A DNA stretch of 64,000 bases from a virus, in IMG/VR virus record IMGVR_UViG_3300032087_004763, positions 62,001-126,000 of that record; one strand, given 5' to 3'. Positions 21,592-61,698 of the stretch are shown piece by piece (positions within the stretch are counted from its first letter, which is position 1; the number at the start of each line of letters is the position of its first letter). The translations under genes were made by a program, and so were the position numbers. Under the pieces are notes generated by a model. It saw only the letters and a program-made list of their open reading frames with translations, was not told the DNA's origin and did not search any database.

Positions 21592-22353
21592 AAACCTTCC
21601 TTTCATCGCATTATAATTTTGCTTCAGCTCATCAGCCGACAATCCTCGGCCATACGCAGAGATAGTAGCAATCAACGAATTTAATACGGGTGCTGAACCA
21701 ATATTTCCACTTGTATTCACATTTCTTGATCCAATTGCAATATCATTCGTAGTACCGTTTCTAGTTCTTGTAATACTGCTAAAAGCTCCTGTTTTTATTT
21801 GAACTGCATCGATATATAATCTGGCAGTAGTTCCATCTCCTGTATATGCAATATGCATCCATCGACCAGTGAGATCAGTATTAGAATATCCAGTAACAGT
21901 ATTTGCTCTCATTAAAATATAACCACCACTTGGATTAGAAGACTCAGCAGTTGCTGAAACTGATTCAATTCCTCCTGCAGTATCAATCCATAATCCATTC
22001 GTAGCACCAGAATACCAACCGCTTTGTGCTTTATTAATCAGCGTACCATAATTCCCTAAAGATTGAACATACACCCAACCACAAAGAGTAAAGTTAGTTG
22101 ATGAACCAAACACTGCAGATTCAATTTCTGAATCATGAGGTACTGATGCATAACTTCCGCTGTCAAAGTCAAGCGAACCTTTATTGTTTGCATCGAATGA
22201 TGCCAATGGGCTACCTTTAGTAGTCGCATTCCTTCCGTTACCACTTAGATCTGTCCAAGTTGTACCACTACCTGGATATGATCTAGAATTTGCTGCGTCT
22301 AGATGCAACATAAGACTATCAGTTACAATTCTAGAACCGTGATTCAAGCTCAT
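21583..22353 (-). CDS. LamG-type lectin-like fibre protein 3
   Basis: 256 residues. N-terminus MSLNHGSRIVTDSLMLHLDA, LamG-like centre (FTLCGWVYVQSLGNYG, GRWMHIAYTGDGTTARLYID), and C-terminus LSADELKQNYNAMKGRFGL. It shares the first 13 residues with lectin 2 and has a longer middle. Four-base overlaps with both neighbours point to coupled translation, probably giving related binding proteins in similar amounts. Confidence 0.75.
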   Translation of the reverse strand: MSLNHGSRIVTDSLMLHLDAANSRSYPGSGTTWTDLSGNGRNATTKGSPLASFDANNKGSLDFDSGSYASVPHDSEIESAVFGSSTNFTLCGWVYVQSLGNYGTLINKAQSGWYSGATNGLWIDTAGGIESVSATAESSNPSGGYILMRANTVTGYSNTDLTGRWMHIAYTGDGTTARLYIDAVQIKTGAFSSITRTRNGTTNDIAIGSRNVNTSGNIGSAPVLNSLIATISAYGRGLSADELKQNYNAMKGRFGL

Positions 22354-22358
22354 AGACC
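22331..22358. repeat. 28-nt direct repeat, copy 2 (lectin gene junction)
   Basis: Exact match of 21564-21591, here spanning the start of lectin 3 and the end of lectin 4. Confidence 0.8.
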
Positions 22359-23147
22359 GAACCTCGCTTTCTGTGCATTGTAATTCTGTAGAACCTCGTC
22401 AGCTGACAAAGCCTTTCCGTATATCCTGCAGATATCGATATATCCATACCACCCGTTATTAAACTGCACTGTACCCTCAACATTGCTACTAATTGCAAAT
22501 GGTCTAGCGGTATCATCACCGTATGTTGCTTCTGTAAGCGAGGTAGTACCAGTTGTCTTTGCTTCACCGTTGATGTAAAGAACCCTTTTACCTGTTCCAC
22601 CATCATACGTTCCAACAATATGAAACCATTTGTTAAAGTAGTCTGCATCGCTAGTAAAATTAAATCTTGTACCCACGGCTGCATTATTTGGGTTTATTTG
22701 AAATTCAACTCTGTTATGTCCTGGGGTTGCACTACTTGCTCCATCTTTTCTCACAGCAAGCCCTGTATAATCACTGAAATCAGTAGACATAATTCTATAT
22801 AATGATCCGCTGCCATCTCCTAAAGAATACACCCACGCTTCATATGTCAACCTTCCAGTAGTTTCACCTAGATATAAACTTGGATCTTTTGAGATATTGC
22901 TTTCAGGAAAAGCAATCGCAGTAGTTCCACTTTGTGCAAACAGCAAATGTCTTTGGCCAGGGAATGTAGTATCATCTACAGTAGGTGCATTACTTCCTGC
23001 ACCATCACCGAATGTTCCGTGATATCCTTGACCAGACATATCAAAATATGTTACGCCAGATCCAGGATAAGATTTTTTGTTTGCAATGTCAACATGCAAC
23101 ACAAGTTTGTCAAGAACAATTCTATTTGAATTATATACAATCGCCAT
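22350..23147 (-). CDS. LamG-type lectin-like fibre protein 4
   Basis: 265 residues. It has the LamG signature (GRLTYEAWVYSLGDG, KWFHIVGTYDGGTGKRVLYING) and ends LSADEVLQNYNAQKARFGL. Its N-terminus (MAIVYNSNRIVLDKLVLHVD) is a diverged copy of the lectin 2/3 start. It lies directly after the 1676-residue fibre, so it is the first lectin translated in the run. Confidence 0.75.
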   Translation of the reverse strand: MAIVYNSNRIVLDKLVLHVDIANKKSYPGSGVTYFDMSGQGYHGTFGDGAGSNAPTVDDTTFPGQRHLLFAQSGTTAIAFPESNISKDPSLYLGETTGRLTYEAWVYSLGDGSGSLYRIMSTDFSDYTGLAVRKDGASSATPGHNRVEFQINPNNAAVGTRFNFTSDADYFNKWFHIVGTYDGGTGKRVLYINGEAKTTGTTSLTEATYGDDTARPFAISSNVEGTVQFNNGWYGYIDICRIYGKALSADEVLQNYNAQKARFGL

Positions 23148-41000: not shown

Positions 41001-41694
41001 CAGTCGTAATTACTTGTTCTGATATTTTAAATCCAACTTCAATATTAATACTAAATGGAAAATATTTCCCTAGTACTAACTCTTGTGCTTCAGCTGTTAC
41101 AAAGTGATTTTTAACAAAGAAAGTTCCAGGTGCAATTTGTAAAATAGTTCCAGTATTAGCAGCAGAGCCAGTTGATGGGCTATCGGCTGTTAATGTAATA
41201 CCAAGAGTTGAGTTTGTAAATGAAGCACCGTCTTGTACTACAACAGGCGAAGTGCCTGATGTTCCAGCTGATGTATCAGTATATTCAACAAAAAGTGTGG
41301 GAGGATTATCTCCAGCGCCATCATCTCTTGCAGAAGCCGCAAAGGCTTTTCTCACTATAAATTTAATGGCAGTCGTGTCACCGGTGAATTCTTTACCGAC
41401 AAGATCGGAGAAAGAAAGACCAGCTGCACTTAATGTAGTAGCCGCTGCTGTAGTGAGTTTAATAGAAGGAAATCTAAGTATATGAAGGTTCCCACCTTCG
41501 ACTGCGGCGCCTTCTACAAAAATGTTACTTCCGAACCGACCGATCTCTTCTTGAATAATTGTCTGCATTTGAGTAAGCTCTCTCGCTTGAAGAGCTCTAC
41601 CCGCATTGAATAATATACGATGATAATGATCGCTGTCTTTGAAATCATCTTTGTATGTAGTTCCAAATGTTGTTGTAGTAACATTAGTAGCCAT
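38017..41694 (-). CDS. DUF4815-type large baseplate/tail structural protein
   Basis: 1225 residues. The N-terminus (TTFGTTYKDDFKDSDHYHRI, GRALQARELTQMQTIIQEEI) is the signature of the DUF4815 family found in T4-like ocean phages, a virion protein of the baseplate or its periphery. The central region (KPYTLDKDDVSLQKNDTKNY) and the long beta-rich C-terminus are typical. The last 60 residues are rich in G, D, R and S and disordered. It is the longest baseplate-region gene. Confidence 0.75.
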   Translation of the reverse strand: MATNVTTTTFGTTYKDDFKDSDHYHRILFNAGRALQARELTQMQTIIQEEIGRFGSNIFVEGAAVEGGNLHILRFPSIKLTTAAATTLSAAGLSFSDLVGKEFTGDTTAIKFIVRKAFAASARDDGAGDNPPTLFVEYTDTSAGTSGTSPVVVQDGASFTNSTLGITLTADSPSTGSAANTGTILQIAPGTFFVKNHFVTAEAQELVLGKYFPFSINIEVGFKISEQVITTDDESALYDNQGASPNISAPGADRYKITLSLAKKSKVTSAENFVYLATISDGEISKQATTSNGYNTIYDVMATRTKEESGNYTINNITAKFSEVSGNDSNLDLELSGGTAYVDGYRLELPRTKLRIQKARDTRTENNQPIIAQYGNFVIGNTANNAGLPNIDTFDSINLMNNYGHTGSVIGGARVRAVEEADSAHKFFLFDINMANGQSFRDTRSFGTSTTDFVNIVTEDGIAQLKETSNNSLLFPLPSTRPTVNGVSDLSLTVQKRITFTYSGSTVTENAGGTGDIFTNTGDWILAKTDGAVTTATFNLIGSPTGNQVEISSIATGNGDYELLAYIAIAGANLSSRQKTLEAAQTVTKTWPTQADSDGNGLAFIDLGFADVHEIQSIAVDSALGADISDNFTFDNGQRDNFYARSRIVANPGVTIPAGSIATTFRRFSHGAGDLFTVNSYQGAINYDDIPDFTKVNGEIINLRDVLDFRPVEGTNGQYSGTGGIVNLLPQTTDVIRADVEYYLPRKDKLVIGIANVDRSTLKFGQYRQITGVSALDPRPPIQPPGTLTLYDMSLKPYTLDKDDVSLQKNDTKNYTMQDIGKLEKRIDDVVELTTLSLLENETSSIEVLDSAGNARTKAGFLADNFANYNFSDTFNPGYRASIDQGEKELTPRFSEASVRLIYDADNAGNTATRVGDYIICPYTEEAFVDQDLVSQEIGVNPFGVLTNSGRMKMSPASDNWFETEYVPDIVIELEDVVTSKGSVTVRSRNDSKYSWYGSTGKVITGSKVVRDKINEVILEKKFIPYMRSIKVYFRARGLSPNTQHFAYFGEESVADWVRSETSFVDYSTTSVDLGSTLTKSTGHPDGSTTLISNGEGEIIGSFVIPSTAALRFRAGDVLFKLLDISENNDDGSTSSAFFTFSAQGIINVSERTFESTRHVTLARGVVQRDDDGGGGGSRGKRTGGYHNYNNGFYSYSSGGRADNDDRDTQADADAAGGSAGSSPF

Positions 41695-41706
41695 AAATTT
41701 TTAACC

Positions 41707-43092
41707 CTAAATGGTAATGATAACCTTAATATCTTCAGTCTGCGACGATGATCGTGTGACAGCGGCCCTGTTTTCAATATAGAGAACCTCACCGCTGAAT
41801 TTATCTATAGTATAGTTTGGAGCTGCAGAATCCACTGTTCCTGTTCCACTACCACCAGTTTCTGTTGCTGTTTCTCCATCACTAAATGACTTAAATCCAG
41901 TCGCTTCAGTCTGATGATAGAATACACTACTATCAGTAATTCCATCAATGAATGCAGTAGCACCAGATGAACCACCGACAATCTTATTGTCTACTGTGAA
42001 TGTAGCAGCAGAGACACCATTAAGTTTAAGTGAGCGAAGTGCAATACCAGAAGTACTACCAAAAATCGGTGTAGGCTGACCAGATGCGCTGTCTCCAACT
42101 TCTAAATTTTTCATTAAAACAATTTGTCTAAAATCTTGATCGGTGATAAAATTACCACCCTCAGTTCCTGCAGGTTTTGCATTAAACATAATTGAGCTTG
42201 ATCTGAGATCATCACGAGGATCATATCCGATCCCCTTCTGTGTAGTGATAATAGGCCGATAATCAGCTCCTGATCCACCGCCTCCAGTGAAAACAATCTC
42301 AGCTAAATCATATCCTGTTCCACCAGCCTCTGCACTATCTAGCTCAACCTTTACTACTTCACCGGCACTTACCGTGGCAACTAGTCTTGCAGTTCTACCC
42401 GTTCCGTTAACAGTAACAGTTGGAGCTGAAGTATAACCACTTCCACCACTTACCTTAAGAGCTCCAGTGATCGCACCACTTACAGCGTTTTCGCGAACCT
42501 CAGCCTGGAATCGTTTTGCATCTGATAAAGAAGTATCAGATGATGAATCTACTAATGGAGAAAACTGAATAGGAACGAATCCAGACGACAAGAAATTATT
42601 AGCAGAAGTAGCATCGACAGTATAAAGGTATTTCCAAATATATCCATCAGACGTTTGGAATGGTTTTGTCTTTGCTACACCAGCGTCATTATAGCTTGGC
42701 TTAATAGTTGACGGTTGAGCTATTCCAGCCGCGTTCTTTGATTGTTGAATTACAATATAGACATCGTTGTCATCAGTCAGTACATAGTGAGCCGGTGAAG
42801 AATTGCCGGCCTGTGAATCTGAATATGCAGGATAAATTGTAGACGTTGACCAGTTGTGACGAGTTACGACAAATGAAGTTGCATTCACTATCTTAATAGA
42901 TTGAAGGTTCTCACGAGCAAGTCTTTCCTCACGGATCGTGCGTACTGGGTTAACCACTGTATCACTTGAATCATACGCATCAGATTTACCAATTCCAATA
43001 TAATACTGATCTGAATCAGTAGCATTCGTCACTTCATCAAAGAGAAGATTTACTACCTTTTTTCGAAAAGAATCAGTTACAATTGCTGTCAT
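41707..43092 (-). CDS. 8: Baseplate wedge protein gp8-like
   Basis: 461 residues (T4 gp8 has 334). The start MTAIVTDSFRKKVVNLLFDE, then YYIGIGKSDAYDSSDTV, and the C-terminal-of-domain motif TSDGYIWKYLYTV match the gp8 pattern (IVTSKFR, ITFGRSEPW, DGYVWEYLF in T4). The extra about 130 residues hold glycine-rich beta modules (GGSGYTSAPTVTVNG) typical of insertions in marine phage wedge proteins. It couples fibre or short-fibre attachment to the wedge. Confidence 0.75.
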   Translation of the reverse strand: MTAIVTDSFRKKVVNLLFDEVTNATDSDQYYIGIGKSDAYDSSDTVVNPVRTIREERLARENLQSIKIVNATSFVVTRHNWSTSTIYPAYSDSQAGNSSPAHYVLTDDNDVYIVIQQSKNAAGIAQPSTIKPSYNDAGVAKTKPFQTSDGYIWKYLYTVDATSANNFLSSGFVPIQFSPLVDSSSDTSLSDAKRFQAEVRENAVSGAITGALKVSGGSGYTSAPTVTVNGTGRTARLVATVSAGEVVKVELDSAEAGGTGYDLAEIVFTGGGGSGADYRPIITTQKGIGYDPRDDLRSSSIMFNAKPAGTEGGNFITDQDFRQIVLMKNLEVGDSASGQPTPIFGSTSGIALRSLKLNGVSAATFTVDNKIVGGSSGATAFIDGITDSSVFYHQTEATGFKSFSDGETATETGGSGTGTVDSAAPNYTIDKFSGEVLYIENRAAVTRSSSQTEDIKVIITI

Positions 43093-43104
43093 GTTTATTT
43101 CCTA

Positions 43105-44043
43105 TTAAGCTAGAGTTATTTCACCCTGATTTCCGATTAAGAACCAATTTGCTCCGTCCCATACGCACTGGCATCCGTCGTTTTGTGCAAGTGCGAATGA
43201 GGTTCCTTGTGCAAAATTTGAAGGAGTAACAGTCATAGCACCAGCGCCCTTATTTGTAAAGATCTTGTACTCACCAACCGTTGTTCCATCTCCTAAAGTT
43301 ACTGCTATTGCACTTCCTCTATTACCTATGATAAAGGTTGTATCATCAATATCTGTAGCTGCTACTGTAGCTGCTGTTACAGTCGTTGCTGTATAGGCAG
43401 CTTTTGAAAATTTTACGGATCCAGTTCCCTTTGCATCAACATTTAAATTAATATTAGTGTTTGTACCAGTTGCTGAAATAGATGGAGGATTACCGGTAGC
43501 AGCATTACTAATTGTTATCTCATTTACTGCAGATCCTGTTCTACTCAGAATCAACATCTCGTTTCCAGACGAGTCGTTAATCGACTGTTGAATAATTGGT
43601 CTATATGCAGTCGGATTCGTGAGCGTCTTATTTGTTAGTGTATCTGTCGTTGCTCTACCGACAAGCGTATCAGTTGATGTCGGTAAAGTAAGTGTTCCTG
43701 AGTTTGATATAGAAGAAATAACAGGCGTCGTAAGCGTCTTATTTGTTAACGTAACCGTGTTTGTATCAAGTACGATATTACCCGATGCATCAGGTAATCT
43801 AGCAACATTATCTGCAGTAGGATTAGTTACCCCAAGACGAGTTTCAAATGCATTTGCTGATGATCCTTCAAATGCAATAACGCTGTCCTCGATCGTTATC
43901 TGAGAACCAAGCGTTGTGCTATCACCGCCAAGATATGTGTATATCTCAGAGAAGTTGCTATTAATCTTGTCAGCGGCTTGACGAAGTGTATCACCGGTCT
44001 TATCGTTCGCAGCAGAACCCGTGCTAATATTTTGCTTTGCCAT
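43105..44043 (-). CDS. Fibre-like structural protein
   Basis: 312 residues starting MAKQNISTGSAANDKTGDTL, then RQAADKINSNFSEIYTYL, an N-terminal module common to marine phage fibres. Repeated TLTNKTLTTPVI and TLTNKTLTNPTAY units form a short beta stalk; the C-terminal about 80 residues (TVGEYKIFTNKGAGAMTV) look like a compact jelly-roll head. It lies between wedge genes, so it may be a short or baseplate-attached fibre. Late promoter at 44070-44077. Confidence 0.7.
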   Translation of the reverse strand: MAKQNISTGSAANDKTGDTLRQAADKINSNFSEIYTYLGGDSTTLGSQITIEDSVIAFEGSSANAFETRLGVTNPTADNVARLPDASGNIVLDTNTVTLTNKTLTTPVISSISNSGTLTLPTSTDTLVGRATTDTLTNKTLTNPTAYRPIIQQSINDSSGNEMLILSRTGSAVNEITISNAATGNPPSISATGTNTNINLNVDAKGTGSVKFSKAAYTATTVTAATVAATDIDDTTFIIGNRGSAIAVTLGDGTTVGEYKIFTNKGAGAMTVTPSNFAQGTSFALAQNDGCQCVWDGANWFLIGNQGEITLA

Positions 44044-44069
44044 ATCTACCTACTAAAAATCTATAGTTT

Positions 44070-44077
44070 TATTTATA
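44070..44077 (-). promoter_or_regulatory. T4-type late promoter upstream of 43105-44043
   Basis: TATAAATA on the minus strand, about 27 nt before the ATG at 44043; GTAGG ribosome site follows. Confidence 0.7.
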
Positions 44078-45046
44078 TCAGAAATTCGAGTCACTTAAAT
44101 ATCTAGTGAATATTGATGCATCCATTGTCTCGGTCGTAATCGTAGTATCTGGTCCAATTGAGTCAGCACTATCATCAAACGTAAACGAGTTCGGTGACAT
44201 AATTTGTAATACATTGTCATATGTATTATCAAGTTCTGTAGTGGTCAACGAACTATAGTTACTAATTGGGTCATTCAATATTATTCTACCCGAACTATCA
44301 CCAATAGAAAGCGTAGCGGTCAATGGTTCATCTAGTGCAAACATCGAGATTGATGCTTCTTGACCCTGAATCACGATTGCTTCGGCTTCAGCTAATGGAT
44401 TTTGTCCAATCGCTGTCGGAGTAATAGACGCTGGATTTTCGAGTAATACTTCTCCCTCAAAATAAAATCCAGCTGGATGTACAAACTTTTTATACAGAGT
44501 CTCATACTCTCTTGTAGATAGACCCGTCTTAACTAAAATAGAAAAGACCTGATAACGCGTATTATTTGTAATAAATTTTTGGCTTTCAAATCCTATATGA
44601 TGTGATAAGAAATTATTATCTGCATCATTAATAGTCAGTACATCTTTCTTAGGATACTCAATTGCTGCTTCTTGGTTGAAGAAACCTCTGAAGAATCCTT
44701 CGGCTGATACTAATGTTCCCTTTGATTGATAGAACAATGCTAACAATCTTGTCATCAATCTTGGTTGTTTAAAGAATGATACGTTAGTAAGACCGTCACC
44801 GATCTCACCAAGTAGAAGGTCTAGATTAGAAAGATCAGTTTGACTTACATCCTTAAGAGAAAATATATCATGTATTATTCTATCGTATGCTTTATCGTCT
44901 GTACCACTTACAAAATCATAATATTTTTCTAAAAAAGTTATTAGATTAGGATAATCTTCTTGCGCATACTCTGGTAAGACGTCTTTTATCTTTGATTGAA
45001 AAAACGGTAGATCTCTTCTATTTTGATCTTCTATAATGTGTGTCAT
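44078..45046 (-). CDS. Baseplate wedge protein, gp7-position
   Basis: 322 residues. The N-terminus contains LPEYAQEDYPNLITFLEKYY and DRIIHDIFSLKDVSQTDLSN, a helical pattern common to wedge proteins; YQSKGTLVSAEGFFRGFF follows. T4 has the large gp7 at this place (1032 residues) between gp6 and gp8, so this may be a shortened functional equivalent, but I cannot show homology. It overlaps gene 6 by four bases. Confidence 0.55.
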   Translation of the reverse strand: MTHIIEDQNRRDLPFFQSKIKDVLPEYAQEDYPNLITFLEKYYDFVSGTDDKAYDRIIHDIFSLKDVSQTDLSNLDLLLGEIGDGLTNVSFFKQPRLMTRLLALFYQSKGTLVSAEGFFRGFFNQEAAIEYPKKDVLTINDADNNFLSHHIGFESQKFITNNTRYQVFSILVKTGLSTREYETLYKKFVHPAGFYFEGEVLLENPASITPTAIGQNPLAEAEAIVIQGQEASISMFALDEPLTATLSIGDSSGRIILNDPISNYSSLTTTELDNTYDNVLQIMSPNSFTFDDSADSIGPDTTITTETMDASIFTRYLSDSNF

Positions 45047-46308
45047 GTGATGACAGCCGCTGTGTTCTGATAATCGATAGTAGCATTTGCAAATGATTTG
45101 TCAGTATCAATTGTAATGATATAATTTCTTAATGGCCGAATCGTTGCTTGATTTGCCGGTGTAGCAGTTATGTGAATACTAGAGCCAGCAAACGCACTCG
45201 GATTAAATCCAGTAATATCAACTTTACCTTTTGCAGGATTATAACTTCCTGCATTATCTTTGATAACAACCTCATCAGAATTGATGATCTCAAGTGTATT
45301 AGATTCAAGTTTGTTTCTTAATGTACAAGTCTGACCGTTAAGTGTAAAGGAAGTAGAAGTGACTCTATACTCGACATCATCATTCGCAGCGATAGCAACA
45401 GGATAACTCAAGGAATAATCAGCTAGAAGATTCAGGGTAGGAGAGAATCTTAACTGCATCTTAACATCCATTTTTGAGTCAAGAATCGCTGTGCTTATTC
45501 CATCCACTTCAGCGAGCAATGCTGACCTTCTAAAGACCTTATCGAATGTATTAAGATTTGAGGTAATATAATTATTAATTACCGTTTGTACATTCGATTC
45601 CGTAGTTTCTACAGTTGTACCTGATAAATCAGGATCAAAATTAAATGTAGTGACTAACTCTAGAAAGACATCGGTCGGATCGCTAAAGACGGTGTCAATT
45701 GACATGATTGCAATATTGTCACCAAGTTGTGTTTGAATTTGGCTTTTTGTCGCAGTCTTAGTTGCTTCGGTGATACCATCCTTAAATTTAAGACTCACAT
45801 AAACTCTTCCATAAACTGGAGGAACGTTATCGTTTCCACCCCAAGCAGAGACATCAGATATCACAGATGAATATTTTGATTTGATTAAAGCTTTGTAATC
45901 CTCGGCTGTTACAAGTCGTTGTTGTGTCGCAAACGCAAGAGGTGCATTTCCTTTAATAGAAGCTATTGATTCCTTCTCATCACCGCCTGCAGAGTTACTC
46001 ACAGTAGTGACAGATAAATCATAATCAACTGATGGACTTCCAAAAGATATCTGTGCATTTGGAGAAAAAACTGATGCTCCATTTGCATCTGCACCTGAAC
46101 TTGTAAGATACGTTATCTCAATTTTATTTCCTGATGAAGGAGATTTACCGAGTACATTACCGTCACTGAAAATAACATCATAGAATCCATTAGGTGCTTC
46201 TCTTACAATGTAAACAGTCGAATTTGAATTAATCCTTGCTGTGTCATTAATATTGACATAAGTAGTTGATTCGGCTGATGTAGTTGTATCAAACACCTTG
46301 ACTGTCAT
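45043..46308 (-). CDS. 6: Baseplate wedge protein gp6, C-terminal part (after in-frame stop)
   Basis: 421 residues from the first ATG after the break, in the same reading frame as the N-terminal part at 46351-46878. It contains the middle and C-terminal gp6 regions: QRLVTAEDYKALIKSKYSSV, then GGNDNVPPVYGRVYVSLKFK, typical of gp6 and its gpJ-like relatives that form the wedge core ring. No ribosome site precedes the ATG at 46308, so this is more likely the continuation of gp6 than a separate gene. The two parts make 611 codons including the inner TAA; T4 gp6 has 660. Confidence 0.8.
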   Translation of the reverse strand: MTVKVFDTTTSAESTTYVNINDTARINSNSTVYIVREAPNGFYDVIFSDGNVLGKSPSSGNKIEITYLTSSGADANGASVFSPNAQISFGSPSVDYDLSVTTVSNSAGGDEKESIASIKGNAPLAFATQQRLVTAEDYKALIKSKYSSVISDVSAWGGNDNVPPVYGRVYVSLKFKDGITEATKTATKSQIQTQLGDNIAIMSIDTVFSDPTDVFLELVTTFNFDPDLSGTTVETTESNVQTVINNYITSNLNTFDKVFRRSALLAEVDGISTAILDSKMDVKMQLRFSPTLNLLADYSLSYPVAIAANDDVEYRVTSTSFTLNGQTCTLRNKLESNTLEIINSDEVVIKDNAGSYNPAKGKVDITGFNPSAFAGSSIHITATPANQATIRPLRNYIITIDTDKSFANATIDYQNTAAVIT

Positions 46309-46350
46309 TGTTGTAGTGTCGATTGTTTTATCTGGGATAATATAAACTTG

Positions 46351-46353
46351 TTA
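46351..46353 (-). other. In-frame TAA interrupting gene 6
   Basis: The codon TAA at gp6 codon 176, read on the minus strand between GGT and CAA. Upstream and downstream parts share one frame and align with an uninterrupted gp6 plan. Confidence 0.9.
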
Positions 46354-46878
46354 ACCAGTTTTGTCACCAACTAAAAATGTTTTTGTTTTAAGTGTCCCTT
46401 CCTTAATAGAGAGAGTAGAACTTCCAGCAGAAGTTTTAAACTGAAAATTACCAGATCCGTCATTAGTAGCAATATGATCTTCTAATGTTTGAAATGTATA
46501 AGAGACTTCATCGAGCGTAGCAGTAAACTTTGTGTTCTTCGGAAGTGTAACAGTTGACGTCAGTGTATCGCTTGATGCTACTGATATCGACACGTTAGCA
46601 GCCGAAGCAGTCTTCGATCTTGGATAGTATCCTAGGTTTTCTGCATGGGTAACAACAGAACTTCTTAACTGCGCAGAAGAAAGAAACGCTTCATTGAGTC
46701 CCATGTTTGCAATGAGACCATTAACATGTGTATTATATGCTAGTACATCTAAAATATTAGAAAGGCCTGACCCTTCAAAATCATAGTCAGAAAATTCTGA
46801 CTGAGATTGAAAATAAGATTTTAGGCTTGATTTAATCTGATCAAAATCTAAATCAGACGACTTGATAGCGGTGCTCAT
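46351..46878 (-). CDS. 6: Baseplate wedge protein gp6, N-terminal part (ends at in-frame stop)
   Basis: 175 residues. The start (DLDFDQIKSSLKSYFQSQSE, NILDVLAYNTHVNGLIANMG, LNEAFLSSAQLRSSVVTHAE) is the typical gp6 N-terminal domain. It ends with FLVGDKTG then TAA, and the frame continues with QVYIIPDKT without shift. It abuts gp25 with no gap. Either gp6 is made by read-through, as two chains, or this genome copy carries a nonsense mutation or a base-call error. Confidence 0.8.
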   Translation of the reverse strand: MSTAIKSSDLDFDQIKSSLKSYFQSQSEFSDYDFEGSGLSNILDVLAYNTHVNGLIANMGLNEAFLSSAQLRSSVVTHAENLGYYPRSKTASAANVSISVASSDTLTSTVTLPKNTKFTATLDEVSYTFQTLEDHIATNDGSGNFQFKTSAGSSTLSIKEGTLKTKTFLVGDKTG

Positions 46879-47319
46879 TTATCTCAACCTCACTAGATCT
46901 ACTTCTAATACTACGTTTTCTAGAGTCGTAATGACGGTAAACTCAACGTTGACAGTCATCGAATTAAAATCTGGATTAAGCGATACGTTAACTGCTTTTA
47001 CTCTTGCCCTTGGCTCATAGTTCTCAATCGCTTGTGCGACTTGTTCTTGTATGTCTAATTCAGAAAACTCTTCTGACAGCTCAAATAAAAACTCATTTAA
47101 TCCACCGCCAAAGTACGGATCAAAAGGTTTCTCTGTTGGGTTTGTCATCAGAATATTCTTGACAGATTGCTTTACGGCTGCAGCATCTGTTTTTTTAAAG
47201 ATATCACCAGATGACTTCTTTGCAAAAGTCAAATCAATATCTTTGTATAGTCTTGTAACCGAAGATGTTAACGGTACCTTTGCTAGATTACCGTCTTCGA
47301 TTGAAAATGCTTTTGCCAT
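46879..47319 (-). CDS. 25: Baseplate wedge protein gp25
   Basis: 146 residues (T4 gp25 has 132). It is the sheath-baseplate connector, of the GPW/gp25 family. Typical segment: KNILMTNPTEKPFDPYFGGG, then LNEFLFELSEEFSELDIQEQ. The EPR/K core signature is IENYEPRARVKAVNV. It starts at 47319 after the late promoter at 47339-47346. Confidence 0.93.
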   Translation of the reverse strand: MAKAFSIEDGNLAKVPLTSSVTRLYKDIDLTFAKKSSGDIFKKTDAAAVKQSVKNILMTNPTEKPFDPYFGGGLNEFLFELSEEFSELDIQEQVAQAIENYEPRARVKAVNVSLNPDFNSMTVNVEFTVITTLENVVLEVDLVRLR

Positions 47320-47352: not shown

Positions 47353-48015
47353 TTAAGCAATTGCGGTTAAAGTCAATACCGGTTTCGATAAATCTAAAGA
47401 CGCTTGTCCATCCGATCTTGCAAGAGGGCGATATGGTGCATGCCATTCTCCATAGTGACTAGTATTATACCGTCTGGTTTTTATTGCAAGTGTTTTACTT
47501 GTGGTCCAAGACGTAAAATATGCCTTATCCAAATCTTCAGTATCTGCATTACAATTAATAACAAATTCCATATCAATCCTATCAGCCTGAATGGCTTCAA
47601 GATGAAATTCATACGATCTGACTGAAACATTGTCAATGACAAAATCCATATAGTTAATTGGATCCCCAGCTATAATTGCATATGCTGCAGTTAATTTATA
47701 AATTACTTTTGTGGCAGCTGGTGGTGGAATGTAAGTAATCGAGCTTCCTGGCATTGTCTCAAACGTATTACTATTATTTCCATCAATCCACTGAGCAGTA
47801 ACCTCAGGCCATGTAAATGTTCCAGACGCTCCAGTCAATTGTGATCCATCACATATGCTTGACAACTGTTCAATAATTGTTCCTTTAGGATAGCTGTTAA
47901 TTACTAGTTGCGAATATGAAATTGTTCCAGTAGTACTAATATTCCCAGCCGTGACCGTTCCAGGAGTAGTAATATTACCACTTATATTTAAATTTTCTAC
48001 TGATAAATTACTCAT
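47353..48015 (-). CDS. Structural protein, probable fibre or baseplate spike accessory
   Basis: 220 residues. N-terminal repeats (LSVENLNISGNITTPGTVTA, GNISTTGTISYSQLV) are short fibre-like strands; the remainder is a single beta-sandwich-like domain (YKLTAAYAIIAGDPINYMDF ... HYGEWHAPYRPLA). It sits between gp5 and gp25 genes, not in a T4 position, so it may be an added baseplate decoration protein. Confidence 0.6.
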   Translation of the reverse strand: MSNLSVENLNISGNITTPGTVTAGNISTTGTISYSQLVINSYPKGTIIEQLSSICDGSQLTGASGTFTWPEVTAQWIDGNNSNTFETMPGSSITYIPPPAATKVIYKLTAAYAIIAGDPINYMDFVIDNVSVRSYEFHLEAIQADRIDMEFVINCNADTEDLDKAYFTSWTTSKTLAIKTRRYNTSHYGEWHAPYRPLARSDGQASLDLSKPVLTLTAIA

Positions 48016-48023
48016 TTTATCTC

Positions 48024-48824
48024 CTATGATTTTTGATATATTTCAGATAATTTAATAATACTTACGCCCTGTTCATCACCTTGTGCTGGAGGACCTGATC
48101 CAACATCATTTAAGACAAAACTCATGGATGAGGTGGGTGCATTACTTGATCCAAATGCAATACCGTATCTTAGCTCGTTAGTAGTTGCTGGTTTGTCAAA
48201 GTATATAAAACTATGCTGCTGCGAAGTGTTACCAATATGCGCATATACTCCCCAATAGTTTGGATGATGTTTATTATTATAACCTTCATATCCTGCTGTA
48301 GTAATTAGCTCGCCGTCTTTTACTATTCTAAATCCACTATCAGCGCTTGTAGAGATACCATTAATTGATACCTCCATCATAATTAAACTAGTTGTGTACT
48401 TAGGTTTAATTTTAGTTTCTAATGGAGTTATTATTGCACCAGGAAATGGATGATTTGAAGCTACGTAGTATTGTGAGGCAGCATCTTCTCGAGTAAAAAC
48501 AGTTTGTATTATCTCACCATGTCTATTATCTTCTGAAAAATTTTGAAAGATATTTGGATCCATTATAAACAGATCAGCAGAATCATCAAGTGTTACCGTA
48601 ATACCAGATGGAATCGTCAATGTGTCTGCAGTAAAAAGCGCACTCTGACCAGCAGACAAACTAAGATTTTTAGTAACCTGATTTGACCCTAAACGAACGG
48701 GTGGATCAGTAAATTCTACAATTTTATTTGCATCGGTCGATGCCGTTCGTGGTAAAAAATAAATCACCTCGCCACTCGAATCAACGAAAGCAAGCTTATT
48801 ATCTTTTACAATCATATCAGTCAT
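48024..48824 (-). CDS. Structural protein, beta-sandwich domain
   Basis: 266 residues from the ATG at 48824, with AAGGGA upstream. The first about 95 residues form short strands (KNLSLSAGQSALFTADTLTI); then a domain with GEIIQTVFTREDAASQYYVA and YWGVYAHIGNTSQQHSFIY resembles the heads of trimeric virion proteins. Similar proteins lie beside its neighbour 47353-48015, so they may be partners. Confidence 0.6.
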   Translation of the reverse strand: MTDMIVKDNKLAFVDSSGEVIYFLPRTASTDANKIVEFTDPPVRLGSNQVTKNLSLSAGQSALFTADTLTIPSGITVTLDDSADLFIMDPNIFQNFSEDNRHGEIIQTVFTREDAASQYYVASNHPFPGAIITPLETKIKPKYTTSLIMMEVSINGISTSADSGFRIVKDGELITTAGYEGYNNKHHPNYWGVYAHIGNTSQQHSFIYFDKPATTNELRYGIAFGSSNAPTSSMSFVLNDVGSGPPAQGDEQGVSIIKLSEIYQKS

Positions 48825-61622: not shown

Positions 61623-61698
61623 TGGCCTCGTCGGCAGGATTCGAACCTGCGACCCTCTGCTTAGAAGGCAGATGTTCTATCCACTGAACTACGACGAG
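61623..61698 (-). tRNA. tRNA-Arg (anticodon TCT) with encoded CCA
   Basis: Complete cloverleaf on the minus strand: acceptor CTCGTCG/CGACGAG, D arm GTTC...GAAC, anticodon stem TCTGC/GCAGA with loop CTTCTAA (anticodon TCT), T arm GCAGG/CCTGC with loop TTCGAAT, discriminator G and genomic CCA (61623-61625). It reads AGA, a codon common in AT-rich phage genes, and this tRNA is frequent in marine T4-like phages. It lies three bases after a long inverted repeat. Confidence 0.95.

Follow-up and report, generated by a model that had tools for sequence, protein, structure and literature searches.

An in-frame TAA in the baseplate wedge gene gp6 of a metagenome-assembled phage probably reflects a sequencing or assembly error

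The gp6 gene and its in-frame stop codon

The stretch of DNA analysed in this study (64,000 nucleotides, hereafter the window) comes from an uncultured marine-type virus of bacteria. A T4-type baseplate wedge gene, gp6, occupies positions 46878-45043 on the minus strand and carries a single in-frame TAA. The features of the gene are as follows.

46351..46878, minus strand: gp6 N-terminal part, 175 codons plus TAA, with the Gp6-like helical domain PF21379
46351..46353, minus strand: in-frame TAA, codon 176 of gp6, private to this record
46360..46362, minus strand: gp6 codon 173, the sole further gp6 difference from the sibling contig L001 (see below), nonsynonymous, 8 bases from the stop-making change
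46309..46350, minus strand: 14 sense codons between the TAA and the first ATG, conserved with relatives
45043..46308, minus strand: gp6 C-terminal part, an ATG-started open frame of 421 codons, its ATG not conserved and without a ribosome site

Both open frames lie in one frame, with the 14 sense codons separating the TAA from the ATG at 46308. Analysis of the bases preceding this ATG (GACACTACAACA) revealed nothing resembling a Shine-Dalgarno motif. With the TAA read through, gp6 is 611 amino acids long and matches PHROG 219, 'baseplate wedge subunit', with an E value of 9e-145 over profile positions 5-594 of 598; the two pieces cover complementary stretches of this profile, the upstream piece 5-165 and the downstream piece 184-594. 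The read-through protein also matches the solved gp6 chains 9f4a and 5hx2 (E about 1e-37). The coordinates, frames, 14-codon gap and TAA given in the original prediction were correct to the base, its statement that the internal ATG lacks a ribosome site agrees with the upstream bases, and its view that the peptide across the stop reads as one protein is borne out by the full-length PHROG 219 match.

Comparison with known systems showed that the window gene resembles T4-type gp6 (PHROG 219; PDB 5hx2, 9f4a) in the full-length profile match across the stop, in the PF21379 domain and in having neighbouring genes packed directly against gp6 on both sides. It differs in that its frame is interrupted by the TAA at codon 176, which the relatives do not have. 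Among marine T4-like phages, gp6 identity was 45% for Phage C48C1, 37% for Pelagibacter phage HTVC008M and 35% for the Methylophilales phage Melnitz group, and in all of these it is the same protein across 98-99% of its length, annotated as a single baseplate wedge gene. These phages are distant, and no near DNA match to the gp6 gene was found among annotated phage records.

No second, intact copy of gp6 is present in the 142,381-base record. A scan of the window for neighbouring same-strand open frames in the same frame, each of at least 80 codons, gave five pairs, and by our reading the gp6 pair alone represents the halves of one gene family. Same-frame pairs were also listed for the rest of the record, and none of the six read by eye resembles one split gene. 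A generally decayed genome was considered and rejected, as no second split-looking gene appeared among the pairs read by eye outside the window.

gp6 in sibling contigs and other relatives

The closest contig, L001 (IMGVR_UViG_3300032086_003297), is a viral contig from another metagenome, with a different IMG/VR sample number. It aligns gap-free with window positions 41387-47106 over 5,720 bases at 99.7% identity (17 substitutions). All 611 codons of its gp6 are open, with a sense codon where the window has TAA. A second near-identical contig, L082, aligns over 13,833 bases at 99.9% identity and ends at window position 47016, short of the stop site. Taken together, the window and these two contigs are 99.7-99.9% identical in DNA over 19.5 kb with no indels, and on this DNA identity L001 and L082 would count as the same virus species as the window virus by any usual cut-off.

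The next relative, L002 (about 90% amino acid identity), is also intact in gp6. Among 80 fetched relatives, the column of the stop holds a sense codon in 79, most often glutamic acid or asparagine, and a gap in one; no stop was found anywhere in the aligned gp6 of these 80 collection relatives. A degenerate DNA scan of viral contigs for the site with TAA found none, and further copies of the exact site were limited to L001 in viral contigs, with none in genome contigs. The original prediction had proposed examining gp6 of close relatives as a check: the TAA is absent from them, and the gene is whole in L001, in L002 and in the rest bar the one gap. The stop and the neighbouring substitution are thus private to this record, and a near-identical virus carries the intact gene.

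L082 and L001 end no more than about 100 bases apart (about 47016-47106), just upstream of gp6, and similarity to L002 is lost between 47347 and 48999. The genes at 47353-48824 may form a variable island that breaks assemblies.

Pattern of differences from the siblings

In the 3,866 bases spanning 43241-47106, just two sites separate the window from L001: 46353, where the change makes the stop, and 46361, 8 bases away. For two differences placed at random in 3,866 bases, a spacing of 8 bases or less has a chance of about 0.4% (2x8/3866, our arithmetic). Agreement between L001 and L002 at both positions marks the window state as derived. Each of the two changes is a nonsynonymous transversion. 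The remaining 15 differences from L001 and 15 from L082 (n=30), used as a yardstick for polymorphism, comprise 25 transitions and 5 transversions; by effect on the protein, 23 of the 30 are synonymous and 7 nonsynonymous. Judged from these sequences, the pair of changes at the stop looks unlike the polymorphism of this population and resembles a brief run of faulty consensus. An error of consensus or assembly would be expected to be confined to the record, to cluster and to depart from the population polymorphism, and the two gp6 changes do all three. A DNA-damage artefact was considered, as both changes are one substitution class on opposite strands; with n=2, too few, it is not claimed.

As a separate observation, 14 of the 17 differences from L001 crowd into 610 bases (42121-42730) of one gene, at 41707-43092. 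This patch may be a local diversity hot spot or the product of recombination. The 3.9 kb adjoining it contain the two gp6 changes and one change at the edge (43240) only.

Selection on gp6

Comparison of the window with L002 gave a dN/dS of about 0.05 in each part of gp6. These values show both parts to be under the same strong purifying selection, and hence a long history of such selection on a continuous gp6. By this measure the stop would be either too recent to leave a trace in dN/dS or not real.

RNA genes of the record

A single phage tRNA gene, for arginine with anticodon TCT, lies at 61623-61698 on the minus strand of the window. Outside the window, the same record contains a two-piece (circularly permuted) tmRNA gene on the minus strand at about 22120-22447 of G000:C1 (L172:2120-2447), with a predicted tag ANDDVYALAA and a match to Rfam RF04321 of 118.6 bits. 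Such split tmRNAs have precedents in marine phages, for example Melnitz (PMC9004378).

Interpretation of the stop codon

The TAA is probably a local base-call, consensus or assembly error in one assembled record. In such an error, a local consensus stretch, probably of low coverage or low quality, would have taken two wrong bases 8 positions apart, and the virus population would encode a continuous gp6 of 611 residues, an ordinary T4-type baseplate wedge ring protein. We infer that sequencing or assembly, and not mutation in the virus, produced the two private changes. Counting against an error is the lack of indels against L001 or L082, which indicates that the overall base quality of the record is good; two close private changes can also be one real multi-base mutation. 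Our search of the literature on premature stops in assembled viruses gave nothing useful.

The strongest competing explanation, itself unlikely, is that some genomes in the sample do carry the stop and make a truncated gp6, and that the assembler picked this variant; the carriers would be dead, or would survive only via complementation in mixed infections. A stop that is private and derived, in a sequence otherwise the same as its intact sibling, fits a very recent loss-of-function mutation, and the clustered substitutions may stem from one mutational event. A dead form, however, should be rare, and a consensus normally gives the commonest base. The T4 baseplate ring is held together by gp6 via N-terminal and C-terminal contacts, both on one chain (PMC3004832); a truncated form should therefore be short-lived. 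Truncation of gp6 would be expected to be lethal, and a fixed stop would therefore need decoding, of which there is no sign.

Decoding has been considered in several forms, all of them improbable. It is very unlikely that the TAA is real and fixed and that ribosomes decode it often enough to supply full-length gp6, even though the frame is open and conserved on either side and the TAA is followed by C, a context that the original prediction termed leaky. Programmed read-through would call for a stop conserved in close relatives, and it occurs in 0 of 80; the near-identical L001 has a sense codon at the position, so there is no conserved recoding site. Nor did the 142-kb phage record yield a suppressor tRNA, the window holding only tRNA-Arg(TCT) and the rest of the record only the tmRNA. 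TAA terminates 35 of 64 long open frames in the window, making it the commonest stop; far from being avoided, it is the main stop signal, and stop-codon reassignment was rejected on this ground. Folding of the 121 bases that follow the TAA is no more stable than that of shuffled sequences (z = +0.62), which speaks against a stimulatory structure downstream. Less credible still is a real and very recent stop in this essential structural gene, tolerated since read-through of TAA, by the host or through an unrecognised factor, would be frequent enough to supply gp6. Least probable of all is a two-chain gp6, in which ribosomes would start anew at the ATG at 46308 and the resulting C-terminal chain would assemble with the N-terminal one. 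An in-frame ATG does follow the stop by 14 codons, but it has no ribosome site, and a methionine is found at its position in only 5 of 80 relatives, with isoleucine in L002, the second-closest relative; a start signal of its own, conserved among kin, is thus missing for the second chain. A second chain begun at this ATG would also lack the conserved residues (QVYxIPD) encoded by the 14 codons that follow the stop, and in the T4 ring the N-terminal and C-terminal contacts are joined by one chain (PMC3004832).

Of the causes listed in the original prediction, a base-call error is the best supported, and a non-viable genome is a less likely candidate. Suppression or read-through is contradicted by the intact L001, identical over the gene save for the two clustered substitutions, and by the absence of a suppressor tRNA from the record, and two-chain gp6 by the intact L001 and the non-conserved internal ATG.

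Significance

A real stop that ribosomes decoded would make gp6 an uncommon example of an essential virion protein translated through a TAA. The likeliest cause is a mistake in sequencing or assembly or, failing that, a rare mutant that is dead, with no new biology involved. The result carries a caution: where a lone in-frame stop appears in a well-conserved gene of a metagenome-assembled virus, conspecific contigs should be compared before any biology is inferred from it.
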